DNA of 64,000 bases from the NCBI RefSeq assembly GCF_001687565.2, contig NZ_CP016534.2, positions 2,794,501 to 2,858,500 of the forward strand, given 5' to 3'. Below are positions 1,239 through 56,518 of the stretch, in pieces; the first letter of the stretch is position 1; each line of letters starts with the position of its first letter. Source of the stretch: Planococcus antarcticus DSM 14505. Its GTDB lineage: Bacteria > Bacillota > Bacilli > Bacillales_A > Planococcaceae. The notes under the pieces were generated by a model that had not been told where the DNA came from, searched no databases, and was given only the letters and a program-made list of their open reading frames with translations. Position numbers and translations under genes: made by a program.

Positions 1239-1373
1239 ACCACACTTTATTTGATCACGACCGCACCCCATATGACGTTAACCGCATCTGGATCTGTTAA
1301 GACCGCACCTCGCAGGGTAAAAACCGCACCTCAACAGGCGATTTCCACACCTCAATTCGTTAAGACCGCACCT
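1239..1373 (-). repeat. Phased 21-bp array A (core GAGGTGCGGT on minus strand)
   Basis: Seven copies of a degenerate core ACCGCACCT (plus-strand sense) start at 1239, 1260, 1281, 1302, 1323, 1344 and 1365, every step exactly 21 bp. The 11-12 bp between cores are not conserved. The array begins directly after the terminator of the beta-helix gene (minus direction) and ends before the galE promoter. No protein is implied: the open frame across it is a by-product of a 21-nt period. Confidence 0.85.
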
Positions 1374-1393
1374 CGTTCACAAAAAACAAAAAA

Positions 1394-1433
1394 ACGTTTC
1401 CACGGAGCCTTTGACGACCCCAGCAGGAAACGT
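1394..1433 (-). terminator. Terminator of the beta-helix gene
   Basis: Stem ACGTTTCC / GGAAACGT with a long loop. On the minus strand it is followed by T-rich sequence (plus A-run 1380-1393). It lies immediately after the stop at 1436. Confidence 0.7.
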
Positions 1434-1435
1434 GT

Positions 1436-2563
1436 CTATTCTTCTTCTTCCGGTACAAAATAGTTTTGGCTTTCGTAGACTTCCAAGTCCTTCTCAGGCA
1501 TGATGAGGTTGCCGATATTTAAGGTGTTGCCAATGACGACATGCCCATCCCCCGCCCCCACATAAATGCCGTAAGAGGATTTATCTCGCGGATCAACGAC
1601 CAAATTGTTTAGAATCTGGGTGTTGTAGCTGGGCAGTTCGAGGTTTTTGCCACCATCTCCTCCCCTTACAGCGATGTTGTATTCATTGTTGAAGGCAATA
1701 TTCGATTCGATGATATTTGACTCTGAAGCATTTTTAACATCGATGCCGTAATAAAATCCACTAACTGTATTATTTTCGATCAGGCTGCTGGTTTCACTTT
1801 CTACGGTAATTCCCTGCTGATCGTCATAACCTGGCCGGTCTTCCGTAACCATGCAATTGACCACATGATTATCTTCGCCACCTCCATACAAAGATACATG
1901 ACCGTCGCCAGAATTTCGCACTACACACGAATCAATGACATTATGGTTGGAATCAAAATTGATGATTCCCGATCCGTAATTAAATTCCGAAGTGACTTTC
2001 CGAACAATATTATCATCTGAATGATTAAGATGGACACCTTGTGAATAGTTCTTCATATAAGTACCTTCGATCGAGCTATTGTCCGTATAGAGAAACAAAA
2101 TGGCGATATGGGAAGTCAAAGAGCCATCTTCTGGCAAACGCTCCCCCATCAAAACGCCGCCTTTAAGGTGGACATCTTCTGTTTCATTGACCCAAAACAC
2201 TCCATATTCTTCTTCCGTATCCGTCTGGAATATAACCTCTTCCATTAAAATGGTGATCGGCCTTGAGATCTTCAAAGCAAAATAGCTGTCCCCATATCCC
2301 GTGACTGCTTTAAGCTCAGGGTTTTTGCTAAGCTTATAGACGCCTGGTGGTATTTCTAGAGTGCCTCCGGCTGGCGTTTCGTCAATGGCTGCTTGAATTT
2401 CTTCCGTTTTATCGACGGCTTCGTCCAGATTAGCATTATAACTTTCAACACCACTTTCGGCATCGTCTCCTTGTGTCATTTTTTCAACCATCAAAAAGAA
2501 ATAGCCAAATCCTACAATTCCCAAAAGTACCAGCAGGGCAGATCCAACTTTTTTTACTGTCAT
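1436..2563 (-). CDS. Membrane-anchored right-handed beta-helix repeat protein
   Basis: A 375-residue protein with an N-terminal hydrophobic segment (about residues 6-25) and then a long body of repeated Asn/Gly/Ile-rich turns (for example SGDGHVSLYGGGEDNHVV, IENNTVSGFYYGIDVKN) typical of parallel beta-helix proteins of the NosD / pectate-lyase-like superfamily. It is probably an extracytoplasmic protein tethered to the membrane and acting on or binding polysaccharide. No substrate can be named. The start at 2563 is preferred because AAGGAGGTGATTGGC precedes that ATG; a GTG nine bases upstream lies within the ribosome binding site. The C-terminus ends in an acidic PEEEE tail. The context is an envelope gene block. 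Confidence 0.75.
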   Translation of the reverse strand: MTVKKVGSALLVLLGIVGFGYFFLMVEKMTQGDDAESGVESYNANLDEAVDKTEEIQAAIDETPAGGTLEIPPGVYKLSKNPELKAVTGYGDSYFALKISRPITILMEEVIFQTDTEEEYGVFWVNETEDVHLKGGVLMGERLPEDGSLTSHIAILFLYTDNSSIEGTYMKNYSQGVHLNHSDDNIVRKVTSEFNYGSGIINFDSNHNVIDSCVVRNSGDGHVSLYGGGEDNHVVNCMVTEDRPGYDDQQGITVESETSSLIENNTVSGFYYGIDVKNASESNIIESNIAFNNEYNIAVRGGDGGKNLELPSYNTQILNNLVVDPRDKSSYGIYVGAGDGHVVIGNTLNIGNLIMPEKDLEVYESQNYFVPEEEE

Positions 2564-18688: not shown

Positions 18689-19642
18689 TCAGACTAGCTG
18701 CTTTTTTAACACATCCACCAAGTACTCCATATCTTCTAAACTATAGCGCTGGTCGCAAGGCAATGGCAGGATATTTGCGGCATACTGGTATTCAATGCTA
18801 TCTTCTGGACAGTCGGCAAGGACGTTCGGCCACAGCAGCGGAATATAGATGTCCTGCTCCGCCAGCTGTTTTCTGATTGATTGGCCATTCTCCACTAAAA
18901 TTGGATAAGCAAAAGCCCCTTGCGGCGTGGTCAGCTTTAAGGGATTGTTAGCGCCCAGCTGCTTGTCCAAATAAGCGTAGTTTTCATTTCTTGTCTTTTG
19001 TGCCCGGTCATAATCGATAGCGCCCATCAGATTGTGTGTCAGTTTCGACATCGTTCGGAGCGGTGTTGCGTCTAGGACATCGTCATTTCGCTGAAAATCA
19101 GAATAGTAGCTGCTGGCAGTTCCCTCATAGCGGCCAATTATGTGCTTCATGCGTTCTGAAGACACGTCCTGTTCGAGCTTCTCGGGCAGGATAGCATCGG
19201 TCGCCAAATAAGCGCCGTCCGGCACACCAAAGAATTTGCGACAGGAATAAATGGTATCGATGCCTTCTAGTGGTTCCTGGAAAAATGCGTGGCTGTGATC
19301 AAGAATTACCTGTCCAACATGTTGCTTTAACATCAGCGTCTGCTGTTTCGTAAGCTGTCCAAACAAATTAACGATATACAAGTATTCTCCCTGCTCCAGC
19401 TGTTTATCGAAAATCGGCTGAAACTCCTGATCGATGTAATAGTATTCAAAACGATATCCATGCTCTACCAGCAGCGTACTGACCGAGTCGCATAAATAAT
19501 AAGGGATATGCAGTTTCGTGATATTCCGTGCTTTCATCAAATAAAGCAATGTATTCCGTCCAGTATTGAGCGCAATCAATCGATCATAGAATTCATTGCT
19601 GACCAGATTGTCCAACCCAAAATATCCGCCTATCTCTTTCAT
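18689..19642 (-). CDS. DegT/DnrJ-like PLP-fold aminotransferase-related protein
   Basis: A 317-residue protein, shorter than usual DegT/DnrJ/EryC1/StrS sugar aminotransferases (about 370-400). The large-domain landmarks are present: GRNTLLYLMKARNI (start of the PLP domain), an Asp in ILDHSHAFFQEP that would contact the pyridine nitrogen, and SCRKFFGVPDGAYLAT with a candidate Schiff-base Lys. It therefore probably binds PLP, although a non-catalytic role is possible given its size. It lies just downstream of the third FemAB-like gene on the same strand. The pair may act together on an envelope glycan, for example amino-sugar synthesis followed by acylation. GGGGGG lies upstream of the ATG. Confidence 0.65.
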   Translation of the reverse strand: MKEIGGYFGLDNLVSNEFYDRLIALNTGRNTLLYLMKARNITKLHIPYYLCDSVSTLLVEHGYRFEYYYIDQEFQPIFDKQLEQGEYLYIVNLFGQLTKQQTLMLKQHVGQVILDHSHAFFQEPLEGIDTIYSCRKFFGVPDGAYLATDAILPEKLEQDVSSERMKHIIGRYEGTASSYYSDFQRNDDVLDATPLRTMSKLTHNLMGAIDYDRAQKTRNENYAYLDKQLGANNPLKLTTPQGAFAYPILVENGQSIRKQLAEQDIYIPLLWPNVLADCPEDSIEYQYAANILPLPCDQRYSLEDMEYLVDVLKKQLV

Positions 19643-19689
19643 ATCAAAATTCCCCCAATTTTACGAATTGTCGCCGGTAAACGACTGGC

Positions 19690-19752
19690 CGTATCTTAAT
19701 CAGCTTTTACTGCACCTCAAAGACTCAGAATCGCACCTCGCTGTACCTCAGT
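19690..19752 (-). repeat. Short phased array E, starting on a stop codon
   Basis: On the minus strand GAGGTAC, GAGGTGC and GAGGTGC occur with spacings of 10 and 21 bp (core G on plus at 19743, 19733 and 19712), and a weaker fourth copy lies 21 bp further (19690). The core is the same as in array A. The TGA stop of the FemAB-like gene (19748-19750) is part of the first unit. Confidence 0.55.
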
Positions 19753-21902: not shown

Positions 21903-22041
21903 GTCGTATTTTGAGCGTCTTAGAGCACGTTTTTATTATTTAAAGTCGTATTTTTTCCAGTTAAATGGATATACGGTCCAAGTCGAATGATATACTGTCC
22001 AAATCACTCTGAATACTGTCCATTAAACGAAAATACTGTCC
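21903..22041 (-). repeat. Phased 21-bp array B (core GGACAGTAT on minus strand)
   Basis: ATACGGTCC/ATACTGTCC cores (plus sense) start at 21971, 21992, 22013 and 22033 (steps 21, 21, 20). Immediately beside them GTCGTATTTT-type cores begin at 21903, 21924 and 21945 (steps 21, 21). The leader TGGATATAC is shared with arrays C and D. The region is otherwise non-coding between the amidase and formamidase-like genes. Confidence 0.8.
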
Positions 22042-22074
22042 AAAGCCCCAAAACCCGTTTAATTACCTACAAAA

Positions 22075-22100
22075 CGGAAAGCGCAAGCCTGCGATTTCCG
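22075..22100 (-). repeat. GGAAAGCGCA hairpin associated with array B
   Basis: CGGAAAGCGCAAGCCTGCGATTTCCG, a near-perfect palindrome (one mismatch). It is linked to the array by AAAACCCGT...AAAAC, a spacer also seen at 24156-24180 and 27226-27253. It may also act as the amidase terminator. Confidence 0.6.
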
Positions 22101-24056: not shown

Positions 24057-24148
24057 ATACTTTCTGATTCAGGGCAAATACTTTCACTTTTATTACAAAT
24101 ACTTTCTACTTGAGCTCAAATACTTTCTATAAAAAGCAGAATACTTTC
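24057..24148 (-). repeat. Phased 21-bp array C (core GAAAGTAT on minus strand)
   Basis: ATACTTTC cores (plus sense) start at 24057, 24078, 24099, 24120 and 24141: four steps of exactly 21 bp. Spacers differ. It begins with the TGGATATAC leader and is followed by AAAACCCG...CCCAAAACC and the GGAAAGCGCA hairpin. Confidence 0.85.
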
Positions 24149-24180: not shown

Positions 24181-24204
24181 GGAAAGCGCAAGCCTGCGCT
24201 TTCC
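24181..24204 (-). repeat. GGAAAGCGCA hairpin associated with array C
   Basis: Perfect 10-bp arms GGAAAGCGCA / TGCGCTTTCC with a 4-nt loop, 32 bp from the last array unit. It may double as terminator of the broken ABC gene. Confidence 0.65.
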
Positions 24205-24257: not shown

Positions 24258-25040
24258 TCAACGTTCTGCTGTCCGGGCCTTTGACAGCAATGGACGTTCG
24301 TTGCTCCAAACAAGGTCTACCGGCAAGCCGAAGAAATCGGAAAGTTGCTCGCTAGTAATCAGCTCGGCGGTATTGCTGGAAGCAAAGACTTTGCCTGCTT
24401 TTAGCAGCAAGGTTTTATGAAACTCCGGCAGGATCTCTTCTATGTGATGCGTTGCGTAAATGATGGTCGGACCGCCCGGCTTTTGTGCGATCTCAGCGAT
24501 CGACTCAAGCAGCTCTTCGCGGGCAATAAAGTTGAGTCCTGCTGTCGGCTCGTCAAGAATGAGCAACTCCGGGTCGGCCATTAAGGCTCGCCCAATCAGC
24601 ACACGTTGCTTTTCTCCTTGCGACAGCGTTTGGTAATCTCCGGTTGGCGTAACCCATGCACCCGAGCTCATAGAGAATGTTGACGCTTTTTTGGTCGATT
24701 GCTTCTGTTGTTTCCTGGTGCAAGCCGAGAGAGGCGAACGCATCGCTCAAAACCACTTCGTTGGCAGCTTCTGCTGAACAGAAGCTGCCACAAAGCCGAT
24801 TTGGCTACGCAGTTTTTCCGCCAGATACGTCTTGCCGAACTCCAGGCAAAGCACTGTGATTTTTCTTTCTGTCGGGAAAAAATAGGCAGTGATCAAATCC
24901 AGTAGTGAAGTTTTACCGGCACCATTCAAACCGTAAAGCACCCAGTGTTCACCTTGTTGAACTTGCCAATCGACTCTGTCCAACAACAAGTTGTCGTCTC
25001 TTCGCCGCGTGACGCCTTCGAGCTCTAAAATCATCCTCAT
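24258..25040 (-). pseudogene. ABC transporter ATP-binding protein, two frameshifts
   Basis: The reading is a complete YlmA-like ABC ATPase split over three frames. Frame 1 (25040 to about 24755) has MRMILELEGVTRRRDDN and Walker A GLNGAGKTSLLD. A middle piece (VVLSDAFASLGLHQETTEA, about 24755-24668) is one base out. The last part (to 24258) has the signature LSQGEKQRVLIGRALMADP, Walker B LLILDEPTAG and ATHHIEEI. One missing base near 24755 and one extra G in GGG near 24668 explain it. All motifs are intact, so the damage is recent or reflects sequencing error. The start overlaps the stop of the upstream trypsin-nuclease gene by ATGA, so the two were an operon. Confidence 0.85.
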
Positions 25041-27253: not shown

Positions 27254-27277
27254 GGAAAGCGCAGGCCTGCGCTTTCC
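27254..27277. repeat. GGAAAGCGCA perfect palindrome
   Basis: A 24-bp perfect palindrome, GGAAAGCGCAGG and its complement. The flank AAAACTTCCTGAATGCCCAAAACC matches the spacer between array and hairpin at array C, but here the array lies 160 bp away on the other side. Confidence 0.6.
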
Positions 27278-27436: not shown

Positions 27437-27528
27437 ATACTTTCTAATTTGAGGCAAATACTTTCCGTTTGCCCCCAAATACTTTCCGTTACGACTAGAA
27501 TACTTTCCATTACGATCAGAATACTTTC
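27437..27528 (-). repeat. Phased 21-bp array D (core GGAAAGTAT on minus strand)
   Basis: ATACTTTC(C) cores (plus sense) start at 27437, 27458, 27479, 27500 and 27521, all steps exactly 21 bp. Leader TGGATATAC and the core are shared with array C; most spacer bases are not. Confidence 0.85.
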
Positions 27529-29383: not shown

Positions 29384-31699
29384 TTATTTTTTCATGGTCG
29401 CTTCGCCGTCGATGACCGCAATAACAATATCGCCATTGGAAGCGGTGTTTTGTTGGTGAACAATAACAATGTCGCCTTTATCGATTCCAGCACCATTCAT
29501 GCTGTCACCAGTAACTGTCAGAGAGAAAGTTTCACTAGGAGATACCACCCATTCACGCGGCAAGGTATGAATCGTCTCATAGGCTTCGGTTGCCAGTGTT
29601 GGCAGTCCGGCAGCAACATTGCCGATCAGTGGAACTGTTACTGTCTCGTGGACCTGCACGAGAACTTCCTGTCCCGCTTCTCTCACTTCTATCTGATCGC
29701 TTTCATCCCGATCTTCTGCGTAGTCGTAATACCGACCATTTTTGAGATTCATATAGACACGCCGGCTTTTTGTATCCGGCAGAAACTGAGCCTGGCATTT
29801 TGGCAGATCCTGTACTTCGTCTCCCTTGCGATCGATAATTTTGACTTCAAGCCCGTCAGTTGCGATTCCGTAAAATGCCTGGCTGTCCGCTTCCATATAG
29901 CTTTTCAGTTGCAAGACAGCATCCTCGATACCACTCCCAAAGCGCTTTACTTCCGCAATAATATACGGTCTCGCTTTCTCAGCCATATAGACTTGAACTG
30001 CAATATCACAATAGCCTTTTTTCGAAAACTGCTGTACTGGAAACTCCAGTTCCATCAGTTCGTATGGATAGCCATAGGTTTCATGAAGTTCACGGACTAG
30101 CCATTGGCGGGTGACTTCTTCTTTGGAATGTAGGTCAACTAATTGATCCGCCAAACGGTATTCAGTCATGCTGATGGATTCGAATGGACGAAGAGAAGCA
30201 TCCTTTTTCATTCGCAAATGATTCCGGTTAATTTCCTTTACAAAGCTGGAAGGCTTTTTCACTGAAGACATATAAAGTAGCTCATTTGCACGTGTCATTC
30301 CGACATACAGCAATTTCCGCTCATCCGATTCGACCGTCTTCTGATCCTCAGCATCCGCATACAAATCCTGAGGGATCAATCCGCTGTTGAGGTCAATCAG
30401 GAAAATGACTTTGAACTCTAGCCCCTTGATCGAATGCATGGTCACTAGTTTCACTTTGTCGGATTCAAAATCCGGATTTGTGCTTTGCAGAATTTCGCAC
30501 GGGATTCCGGCCTTTTCCAGATCGGATGATGCACTTTCAATATTCCGTTTTCCCCTTGCAACAATGCACATCTCTGACAAGGCATAATCATTCTGTAGCC
30601 GGGCAATTTCTTCCGCCAGAAAATGGACTTGTTGCTGCGGCGTCATAAAGAACCGATAAATCGGCGGATGCCCGTGGCGATCGATCAATGCCGGTTTAAC
30701 GAAATCGACATTCGACTGAATGCTTTCATCCGCTTCGATCAAATGAAAAGCCGCCGTCGAGATTTCTGTCGTCGTCCGGTAGTTCTTGCTCAATGTCCGA
30801 GATTTCCCGCTCATATCGTAGCCGATGGTAGTGAACGGCCGCCCTTTGCCAAGCCAGGACTGCGGATAGATGCTCTGCGTATTATCTGCCACAAACATCA
30901 GCGAAGAATAATCCTTCTCTTTATACAGTTCCTTCAGAAACTCCAGCTGGACGCGCGTCAAATCCTGACTTTCGTCGATGATGATATGTGTATATTGCCC
31001 GGCCGCGCTTTTGCGCAATTCTTCTAGAGCGTAGAGATTCATCTGTTTGAATGTGGTGAGCCCTGCTCCTTCAAGCAGCTGCCGAAATACGTTCATGACT
31101 TCGTAGATAGCTTGACGCGTCTGCGAGTTCTTCAGTAATTTCTGAGGTGTCCCACTATTTCCAGATGCCCTTCCGATTCGGTCGACGGATTGATAGGTTT
31201 CTACATCCACCATTGAACAGGAATGGATCCACTCTATTTCATCCAATAGGAATTTACTGTTTTTCGGTAACAGCAGTTTGACATCTGGATAGGATTTTTT
31301 CACTTCGTGGATGGCTTGAATCATAACTTTGTGGATTTTTTCCACCGAAGCAATTTCGAGTTTTTCTCCAATCCGCTTCTGATACCGCCTGAACTCCTTA
31401 AACATCAGGCTGTCGATTGTTGTAATTTCCACTTCTGCATCCGCAGCGAAAAAGCGTTCCGCTTCCTGCATTTCTTTTTCAGCCATCCGTTCATACTGAT
31501 GCTTTATGTAATGAAGCAAGGTCTTGTTATATGTGACCAGCAAAATCTTGTCATCTTCCTCGTGGCAATAATGATCCAGTAGAAAATGAATTCTGCGAAT
31601 ATCGACAGTTGTCTTGCCTGAACCTGCTACCCCTTTTACGAGCATTGGACCTGATGGTTCCAGTTCAACAATACGGCGTTGTTCCATATTCAACTTCAA
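29384..31699 (-). CDS. UvrD/Rep-like helicase with LexA-like S24 peptidase tail, stop inside the tail
   Basis: A 771-residue protein. The helicase core has Walker A GVAGSGKTT (near residue 22), a Walker B-type IIIDESQDLTRVQ, QSIYPQSW, a motif IV-VI region with TMHSIKGLEFK and LLYVGMTRA. A type I restriction HsdR-N-like segment (YCDIAVQVY...IIAEVKRFG) follows, and then a LexA/S24 domain with the nucleophile in VTGDSMNGAG and the general-base Lys in GEATMKK. TAA falls immediately after that Lys; the remaining 38 residues of the fold are still in frame downstream. TTG 31699 follows GGAGGGG at 8 nt. A role in DNA repair or stress with autocleavage is plausible. Confidence 0.85.
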   Translation of the reverse strand: MKLNMEQRRIVELEPSGPMLVKGVAGSGKTTVDIRRIHFLLDHYCHEEDDKILLVTYNKTLLHYIKHQYERMAEKEMQEAERFFAADAEVEITTIDSLMFKEFRRYQKRIGEKLEIASVEKIHKVMIQAIHEVKKSYPDVKLLLPKNSKFLLDEIEWIHSCSMVDVETYQSVDRIGRASGNSGTPQKLLKNSQTRQAIYEVMNVFRQLLEGAGLTTFKQMNLYALEELRKSAAGQYTHIIIDESQDLTRVQLEFLKELYKEKDYSSLMFVADNTQSIYPQSWLGKGRPFTTIGYDMSGKSRTLSKNYRTTTEISTAAFHLIEADESIQSNVDFVKPALIDRHGHPPIYRFFMTPQQQVHFLAEEIARLQNDYALSEMCIVARGKRNIESASSDLEKAGIPCEILQSTNPDFESDKVKLVTMHSIKGLEFKVIFLIDLNSGLIPQDLYADAEDQKTVESDERKLLYVGMTRANELLYMSSVKKPSSFVKEINRNHLRMKKDASLRPFESISMTEYRLADQLVDLHSKEEVTRQWLVRELHETYGYPYELMELEFPVQQFSKKGYCDIAVQVYMAEKARPYIIAEVKRFGSGIEDAVLQLKSYMEADSQAFYGIATDGLEVKIIDRKGDEVQDLPKCQAQFLPDTKSRRVYMNLKNGRYYDYAEDRDESDQIEVREAGQEVLVQVHETVTVPLIGNVAAGLPTLATEAYETIHTLPREWVVSPSETFSLTVTGDSMNGAGIDKGDIVIVHQQNTASNGDIVIAVIDGEATMKK

Positions 31700-32075
31700 T
31701 GATAACACCCCTCCACATTTACAACTTCTACCTATATTATAAGAATATTGTCGCATAATAGCAAAGTCTAATACTAGTCACGCATTTTTACAGAACTCAA
31801 GGTTAAGCATTGGGTCTGATTTCACTTGAAACCACTTTTGCACTATCGCAAATTTCTTAGAGTCGCTCTTTTTCATTAGAAGTTCCTATGTTTCTCTCCA
31901 TTATGAATCGTTTTATATCACAAGATAAATAAAAGGTTCATTCGAAATCGATTGATTTCGAATGAACCTTTTTCTCTAGCATATTTTACCAACTGAATCG
32001 CTTCATTCACCGGAAATCATCCTATCTAAAACCTGTCCAAAACGAAAAGCCTGACATTTCGCAGACCTTTCTGAC
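31700..32075. other. Intergenic region, terminator only
   Basis: No supported gene. It contains the hairpin at 31931-31972. Confidence 0.6.
31931..31972. terminator. Terminator hairpin with GAAATC/GATTTC top
   Basis: Stem AAAAGGTTCATTCGAAATC / GATTTCGAATGAACCTTTT with a 4-nt loop. It serves the 32076 gene on the minus strand. Confidence 0.85.
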
Positions 32076-38024: not shown

Positions 38025-38132
38025 CGTGCGTATTTTTGTGCCACCGTGCGTAAACTTTCCTGAACGTGCGTATTTCTCCCTGACCGTGCGTAAACTCGGC
38101 TGAACGTGCGTATTCTATTTTTACCGTGCGTA
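38025..38132 (-). repeat. Phased 20-bp array F with alternating units
   Basis: CGTGCGTA (plus sense) starts at 38025, 38045, 38065, 38085, 38105 and 38125: five steps of exactly 20 bp. Units alternate between AACGTGCGTATT and ACCGTGCGTAA, giving a 40-bp super-period. The remaining bases are unrelated. It is positioned after the terminator of the SEC-C gene (minus direction). Confidence 0.88.
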
Positions 38133-43571: not shown

Positions 43572-43645
43572 ACCCGGGTGTTTGCCGGTTGGACCCGGGT
43601 GTTTGCTTTTTACCCGAAAACCGTCTATTTCTATCCGGAAAACCC
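43572..43645 (+). repeat. Short phased array G (core ACCCGGGTG)
   Basis: ACCCGGGTGTTTGC starts at 43572 and 43593 (21 bp); weaker units ACCCGAAAA (43612) and ATCCGGAAAA (43633) follow at 19 and 21 bp. It begins right after the T-run of the preceding terminator. Confidence 0.5.
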
Positions 43646-55930: not shown

Positions 55931-56518
55931 ATGACGCGAAAACGGGCGTTTAATCCCCATTCCTATTACCACGTCATCATGCGTGGCAATAACCGGCAAC
56001 TGATTTTCAAAACGAAAGAAGATATGCTTGAGCTCAAACGGGCATTTCAACATATTTATGTGGATTACCCGTTTAAGATTCTGGCTTATTGTTTTATGAC
56101 CAACCATTATCACATTTTAATCAAAGCCGAGCGTGATCCTTTTCATAAAATCATGGGACTGGTCAATCGCCGGTATTCCATGTCTTATGCCAAGCGTTAT
56201 CGCCACATCGGACGGATTTACCAGAAACGGTATTTCGCGAAGGAAGTCGATTCACGTCTTGGCCTTCTCACCGTCAGCAGTTATATCCACCGGAATCCGA
56301 TTCAAACCAAAAAGCCGATGGTGGAGCGATTGGAGATGTATCCGTATAGTTCGTTTCCACTGTACTGGGACGAGTCGCTTCCTGCTCCCGCTTTTTTAAA
56401 CCGGCAACTGCTGAAAGAATTGCTGCCAGAGCCGTTTCAAAAGAACAACACGGCTTATTGTATGTATTGCCTGACTTATAAGAAGATCAGCATGTGGAGG
56501 ATATGGAGCCGCCGGTGA
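55931..56518 (+). CDS. REP-associated tyrosine transposase (RAYT, Y1/HUH family)
   Basis: A 195-residue single-strand DNA transposase. The metal-binding HUH motif is H59-Y-H61 in FMTNHYHILIKAE. The helix with the catalytic Tyr lies in NRRYSMSYAKRYRHIGRIYQ, and SSYIHRNPIQ follows, as in RAYT proteins. Such enzymes are domesticated relatives of IS200/IS605 transposases that bind and cut REP hairpins and are usually single-copy. GAGGTAAAGCG precedes the ATG, directly behind the comM pseudogene stop. A GCTCACAGG-type repeat lies 55 bp downstream. It likely created the REP families of this genome, though which family is cognate is open. Confidence 0.9.
   Translation: MTRKRAFNPHSYYHVIMRGNNRQLIFKTKEDMLELKRAFQHIYVDYPFKILAYCFMTNHYHILIKAERDPFHKIMGLVNRRYSMSYAKRYRHIGRIYQKRYFAKEVDSRLGLLTVSSYIHRNPIQTKKPMVERLEMYPYSSFPLYWDESLPAPAFLNRQLLKELLPEPFQKNNTAYCMYCLTYKKISMWRIWSRR

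Follow-up and report, generated by a model that had tools for sequence, protein, structure and literature searches.

What is a row of seven short words, set exactly 21 bp apart and divided by dissimilar spacers, doing between two bacterial genes, and does it stand alone? The row, array A, lies near the start of the 64-kb stretch of DNA analysed here (the window; positions 2794501-2858500 of contig C1 in the source genome G000, 3.8 Mb). Its cores start at 1239, 1260, 1281, 1302, 1323, 1344 and 1365, every step being 21 bp, and all of these positions and steps, first reported in a sequence-only reading of the window, were reproduced. Each core has 0-2 mismatches to ACCGCACCT, and the same core was found by pattern search at three other loci of the chromosome. 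The array starts directly past the terminator (hairpin and T-run) of the upstream NosD-like gene. Six further arrays had been listed in the window; those at 24057, 27437 and 38025 and the right part of that at 21903 stood up, whereas the ones at 19690 and 43572 hold two copies each (Table 1). In the four-core array ATACGGTCC/ATACTGTCC recurs at 21971, 21992, 22013 and 22033, and to its left GTCGTATTTT is present only twice, at 21903 and 21945, 42 bp apart. The core family of the array at 38025 recurs at step 20 at another locus of the same genome (L324) and at one of genome G035 (L144).

Table 1. Phased arrays, core pairs and the terminator next to array A (window coordinates)
Feature	Position	Strand	Remarks
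Array A	1239..1373	minus	seven cores, step 21 bp; AGGTGCGGT on minus, equal to ACCGCACCT on plus
Hairpin and T-run at the end of the NosD-like gene (1436-2572, minus)	1385..1436	minus	read by eye
GCACCTC pair, starts 19712 and 19733	19711..19740	minus	21 bp apart; too few for an array
Four-core array ATACKGTCC (GGACMGTAT on minus)	21971..22041	minus	steps 21, 21, 20
Five ATACTTTC cores (GAAAGTAT on minus)	24057..24148	minus	step 21
Five ATACTTTC cores (GAAAGTAT on minus)	27437..27528	minus	step 21
Six CGTGCGTA cores	38025..38132	plus	step 20
ACCCGGGTGTTTGC pair	43572..43606	plus	21 bp apart; not an array

The number of such arrays exceeds chance, and the excess is tied to the step. We counted start positions at which an exact 7-mer occurs three times at one step in 464 kb of partly chosen stretches of G000. 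There were 53 of them at step 21, 8 at step 20 and 5 at step 22; the other steps gave 5 (step 12), 13 (24), 11 (40), 4 (41), 19 (42) and 185 (48), and one Markov shuffle of the 464 kb gave 0 at every step. Scanning the same sample for 8-mer cores whose neighbours differ at one base at most, we found 13 arrays of at least four cores at steps 20-22, versus 0 in one shuffle; at central steps of 9, 12, 15, 18, 24, 27, 30, 33, 36 and 42 there was one array each at 12 and 24 only. An evenly spread sample (40 pieces of 20 kb, 800 kb) yielded 14 arrays of at least four cores at steps 20-22 and 0 at five control steps (15, 18, 24, 27 and 31). Four of the 14 make up one higher-order repeat in locus L324 (positions 18946-19740, where CGTGCRTA arrays of five to six cores are repeated four times at about 222-242 bp) and the sample therefore represents 11 loci. 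None of the 14 lies inside an open reading frame (ORF) of at least 90 residues, though such ORFs cover 81%. Elsewhere, arrays of other periods were seen once each at 15 and 24 in G035 and at 12 and 42 in G009. The phased arrays are a real class: direct repeats that are not palindromic and whose cores are conserved.

Within one genome there are at least four core families, in line with the earlier view of several different cores within one genome-wide class. In G000 the AGGTGCGGT family occupies four loci (by pattern) and the GAAAGTAT family 12 loci with ATACTTTC pairs, with GACAGTAT as a variant; further families have the cores TTGTTTGCRG and CGTGCRTA, the latter at step 20 and also found in G035. 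Arrays contain 4 to 7 cores in G000 and 9 in some related species. In 55 units, the consensus around AGGTGCGGT is GAGGTGCGGT-Y-W-T-B, then bases under loose constraint and, at the end, Y. The step goes with the core family: it is 20 in all six CGTGCRTA arrays (three loci), and 21 for 253 of 265 neighbouring GGTGCG cores, with 11 more explained by one missing unit, in a count that allowed only 20-22 and 41-43. The families also differ in the make-up of their units. Among the 29 GAAAGTAT units of 12 loci, base preferences flank the core on both sides, and six middle positions carry less than 0.25 bit each. Spacer likeness is 0.397 within a locus (31 pairs) and 0.407 between loci (375 pairs); since it is no higher within than between, these units are not recent tandem copies. 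The GGTGCG arrays, on the other hand, do show duplicated units, with a spacer identity of 0.599 within and 0.426 between loci (210 units, 47 arrays), and with units more alike to the next but one (0.612) than to the adjacent one (0.492). The statement that the arrays are not plain minisatellites is thus clear for the GAAAGTAT family and less clear for GGTGCG. At seven loci (L041, L100, L181, L192, L193, L206 and L210) a GGTGCGG array adjoins a TTTAGTTGCGG array in the same orientation, which makes two words per site.

Comparison with relatives separated cores from spacers. Across 51 equal-length pairs of orthologous arrays, differences affect 320 of 3054 core columns and 1212 of 2568 spacer columns, the aligned flanks having 68-95% identity. 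This contrast is somewhat inflated and to be taken as an upper estimate because the cores were part of the search key. Conserved cores with unconserved spacers, as had been described for the window, are therefore also what the pairs display. Downstream of a DUF1028 gene, an array (a chain of three or more cores within 600 bp) is present in 14 of the 18 species with the orthologue and in none of the other four; its cores are of the GGTGCG type in 8, GGTGCGA in 1, GCGTATT/CATATT in 4 and AGTTGCG in 1, and G026 has both a GGTGCG and an AGTTGCG array there. The nadA gene is present in 24 of 36 genomes and followed by an array in at least six (G000, G012, G014, G017, G029 and G030). A core that relatives keep, or exchange for a different word at that position, is indicative of a protein docking site.

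How far the design extends was followed with individual words. Triples of ACCGCACC occur in 11 of 36 genomes of the genus (G000 included) and in 0 of 24 genomes from other genera of the class. Of 200 genomes sampled across the order, 34 have triples of the pattern GAGCGWWW; these genomes belong to a single family and to 8 of 17 genera, and their matches include the genus-typical words GAGCGAATTT, GAGCGATAAA and GAGCGAATAAA; a class-wide draw gave 8 of 299, and outside the family 2 of 271. On these counts, the design with this pattern is family-wide and rare outside. A control pattern with the core reversed matched at 21-bp steps in 7 of the 200 genomes, up to 27 times in one; the matches include G080, G133, G134, G187 and G195, perhaps as arrays with a further core. 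Unsupervised scanning of 200 kb per genome found 2 arrays in G035 and none in G009; across 16 genomes from other genera, 320 kb in total, there were none either. Named genomes were scanned for a pair of GAGGTGCGGT cores at a distance of 21 bp, which gave 40 stretches: 29 are from Planococcus or Planomicrobium, Oceanobacillus halophilus (L173) and Salsuginibacillus halophilus (L180) have 21-bp arrays of near-perfect tandem copies, and the remaining nine look like coding repeats or chance. Together with the kinship data, this assigns the bacterium with genome G000 to the Planococcus group. In genus g38 (G200) the arrays are long and irregular, with step 19 also present. Around the GAGCGAATAAA arrays of five G200 loci (L241, L263, L264, L268 and L269) there are short flank pieces in common, and spacers are dyad-like, which suggests that the arrays of this genome may belong to a larger dispersed repeat.

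Relative to genes, the arrays show a preference for 3' ends and terminators. Loci of the family contributed 128 distinct arrays. Classification excluded 39: an ORF of at least 90 residues ran through 27, 10 were close to an edge and 2 lacked a gene on one flank. The 89 classified arrays, which are not independent since orthologous sites recur across species, lie between converging genes in 36 cases, tandem genes in 48 and diverging genes in 5; for comparison, the complete set of 100-800 bp gaps in the sample of G000 comprises 46 converging, 193 tandem and 74 diverging. In tandem gaps 19 arrays run in the sense of the genes and 29 against it. The even sample alone has 4 converging, 4 tandem and 2 diverging, 10 classifiable arrays being too few to test; because two of these ten are in diverging gaps, placement at 3' ends is only a tendency. 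Terminators are predicted on both sides of 22 of 35 converging sites and on at least one side of 30. In a second count, of 36 converging gaps, the terminator finder reported the right strand 24 times on the left and 29 on the right, and the wrong strand 5 and 19 times, respectively. Where a sense terminator is present, the first core stands 4-11 nt past its T-run in 16 of 33 cases, and in 21 of 42 a distance of 13-18 nt separates the last core from the opposing T-run, both counts including orthologous sites of several species. The earlier claim that most arrays begin after a stop codon or T-run holds as a tendency: these intergenic elements often do. Some arrays (L030, L031, L247 and L249) lie directly before a ribosome-binding site and would therefore be transcribed.

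Taken together, we favour the view, to which we give about an even chance of being right, that the arrays are double-stranded DNA sites for cooperative sequence-specific proteins, most likely serving as a boundary outside transcription units. Each array would be a cluster of asymmetric binding sites; with a spacing of two turns, copies of a sequence-specific protein would line up next to each other along the same face of the DNA, presumably binding cooperatively. Several site languages are used at once (AGGTGCGGT, GAMAGTAT, TTGTTTGCRG and CGTGCRTA), and these would presumably be read by different or paralogous proteins. A protein-coated stretch would border transcription units on the outside, frequently with terminators facing each other on its two sides, and could block read-through or collisions or constrain supercoils. 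The specificity of binding would then change between species. A bolder form of this view, which we hold to be rather unlikely, is that of a fast co-evolving protein-DNA system in Planococcaceae: each array family would delimit transcription units on their outer side and be read by its own cooperative protein, and arrays would be rewritten in place to the new word when the specificity changes in a lineage, the boundary element outliving its sequence. As to the binding partners, the nuclear proteins named in the sequence-only reading are inapplicable, the chromosome being bacterial.

The closest relative in form is the end of an IS21 element, and it is conceivable, although unlikely, that the intergenic arrays represent transposon ends, solitary or domesticated, of the IS21, Tn7 or Mu kind, in which a transposase binds several direct repeats at each end, about two turns apart. 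An IS21-type remnant lies just beyond the window. Its istB-like gene is followed by four GTGGTTCT cores (steps 20/22/22), and a further four adjoin an istA start in inverted sense; another IS21-type copy has steps 22/22/20 at the istA end, and IS21-type copies on Bacillaceae plasmids have similar repeats. G000 contains 14 IstB_IS21 matches, 10 of them below E = 1e-50. According to the published account, the ends of IS21 are direct repeats 23 bp apart, with two GC-rich blocks each, and are engaged by an IstA tetramer (PMC10122671). The arrays share this feature of several direct repeats ~20-23 bp apart: the IstA-binding repeats (L1/L2, R1/R2) are likewise asymmetric, ~two turns apart and bound side by side by one protein, and IS21 ends illustrate the type of protein behind such a DNA design. 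GGTGCG arrays in inverted pairs, about 22-25 kb apart in G000 and G017, 20 kb in G030 and 9.5 kb in G034, keep the transposon reading open; between the pair in G000 there are chromosomal genes (some were read). However, IS21 ends form inverted pairs around istA/istB and use other cores. Those read in G000 are of the GTGGCTCA, GTGGTTCT, AGTTGACC and AAAACTGTTG types (one at a right end only) and three elements on Bacillaceae plasmids have GTGGATCA/GTGGAACA-like ends, none of which is a core of the intergenic arrays at issue (GGTGCGG, GAAAGTAT, GAGCGAAT and CGTGCGTA). In the loci searched by tblastn, istA and istB matched only at L016, L025, L319, L328 and L329, weakly at L166, and adjoined no GGTGCG, GAAAGTAT, TTGTTTGC or CGTGCGTA array. 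Within loci of 3 kb and 8 kb an array is either single or has neighbouring arrays that point the same way, and the arrays persist at the same site across species. By analogy, they may work like a multi-site transposase or initiator platform, and we do not file them as IS21 ends. The earlier remark that no named element has this form needs amending to this extent: IS21 ends are similar in form, but the arrays fail as such ends on the features tested.

Other explanations dispense with a DNA-binding protein. If the arrays were neutral or selfish 21-bp minisatellites, expanded by slippage and then decaying, the near-perfect tandem copies in the two halophilus species, the duplicated GGTGCG units and the fourfold repeat in L324 would all be natural; we nevertheless regard this as distinctly unlikely, as cores are conserved and spacers free across species, GAAAGTAT units are equally unlike within and between loci, and arrays of this kind are nearly confined to steps 20-22. 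It is very unlikely that the arrays act as RNA, their transcripts being bound by an RNA-binding protein or serving as a sponge. Such a role would suit the arrays in probable leaders, right before a ribosome-binding site. It agrees poorly with the many arrays that start just past a T-run, with the terminators predicted on both sides of 22 of 35 converging sites and with the use of both orientations relative to tandem genes. Nor is there excess structure: 21 folds (five from the window and both strands of eight sampled arrays) were less structured than mononucleotide shuffles, with a mean z of +0.82. Rfam gave no match in the window at the gathering score and no tRNA was found. The proposal of a DNA rather than an RNA level thus gains weight, since there is no excess of RNA structure and many arrays lie past T-runs. 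A guide-RNA array with very short spacers, CRISPR-like or TIGR-Tas-like, has hardly any probability in our view. Conserved repeats with variable spacers and the 42-bp two-unit alternation in GGTGCG arrays would recall one; what speaks against it is that a single genome has many short arrays, dispersed and differing in their cores. A TIGR-Tas array was rejected, as a Nop-domain (PF01798) protein above the cut-off was found in 0 of 10 array-bearing genomes (G200 has one sub-threshold match). CRISPR had been discounted from the outset, and this was borne out by the core of ~9 bp, the step of 20-22 bp and the lack of a cas domain in 20 window proteins (Pfam).

Several further identities were tried. 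Coding repeats do not account for the arrays: the best frame has a stop in 12 of 47 GGTGCG arrays, and steps 20 and 21 mix within arrays. Phage cargo was dismissed after scans of viral contigs with three core patterns, which gave 0, 1 and 2 stretches, two inside an ORF and one (L286) between ORFs of an unrelated contig. A replication-polarity signal of the Chi or KOPS type fits G200, where 17 of 18 loci of contig C1 (grouped by hand) are co-oriented with the skew, but not G000, with 4 of 11 loci of the even sample (read by hand). A larger dispersed element around the G000 arrays was rejected on comparing the flanks of 22 loci, which, besides the IS21 region, have in common only hairpin pieces of 24-28 bp near three window arrays. 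These near-identical REP-like hairpins, GGAAAGCGCARGCCTGCGCTTTCC, lie at 24181-24204, 27254-27277 and about 22071-22096, next to the three arrays, and a pattern scan of the G000 stretches returned two full copies. A link with RAYT (Y1) transposases was weighed too: Y1_Tnp is found in 9 of 11 genomes, but is absent from the array-rich G017 and present in G009, where the 200 kb scanned had no array at steps 20-22.

Plasmid iterons and parC repeats are direct repeats as well (about 20-22 bp); they serve as sites for initiator or partition proteins, with one array per replicon. Here, there are many arrays on a chromosome, with several cores. REP/BIME elements lie near 3' ends. They resemble the arrays in being extragenic, species-specific and of several classes per genome, and differ in being palindromes, alternating in orientation within BIMEs, against non-palindromic cores in one orientation. 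Membership in REP/BIME was rejected, as the cores are not palindromic and show no excess folding. STAR elements of Staphylococcus are likewise direct repeats scattered between genes, with a conserved motif and spacers particular to each locus. They have one 14-bp motif, spacers of at least 40 bp and a tandem period of about 50 nt, with a variable copy number and an unknown function (PMC3532100). The arrays have several cores at 20-22 bp, and since both cores and steps differ, we do not count them as STAR. The bacterial intergenic repeats compared here are thus palindromes or lack helical phasing, whereas the arrays are non-palindromic and phased; among the matches listed in the open-licence literature there was no description of such arrays in Planococcaceae. 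Helix-phased arrays whose word varies while the site stays would offer a route to an unknown DNA-binding factor, and a test of whether bacteria mark the boundaries of transcription units at the DNA level. If called as genes, they would be expected to give spurious short ORFs with a period of 7 residues.

The window and its surroundings have other features. At G000:C1:2859618-2866500 (L329, L016), three or more IS21-type elements whose ends carry different words form a nest; for one of these kinds the genome has five istB copies with nearly the same score. At 55931-56518 (plus strand), a RAYT-like Y1 transposase (PF01797), with no array alongside, directly follows a gene that we take to be ComM/YifB-like. 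A second ComM/YifB-like and RAYT pair extends across and beyond the window end (C1:2857213-2859319). One ORF at 29384-31756 (minus strand) joins UvrD-type helicase, HsdR N-terminal and S24 peptidase domains, a seemingly unusual mix, and at 24258-25040 (minus strand) an ABC-transporter ATPase domain is divided between two neighbouring ORFs.
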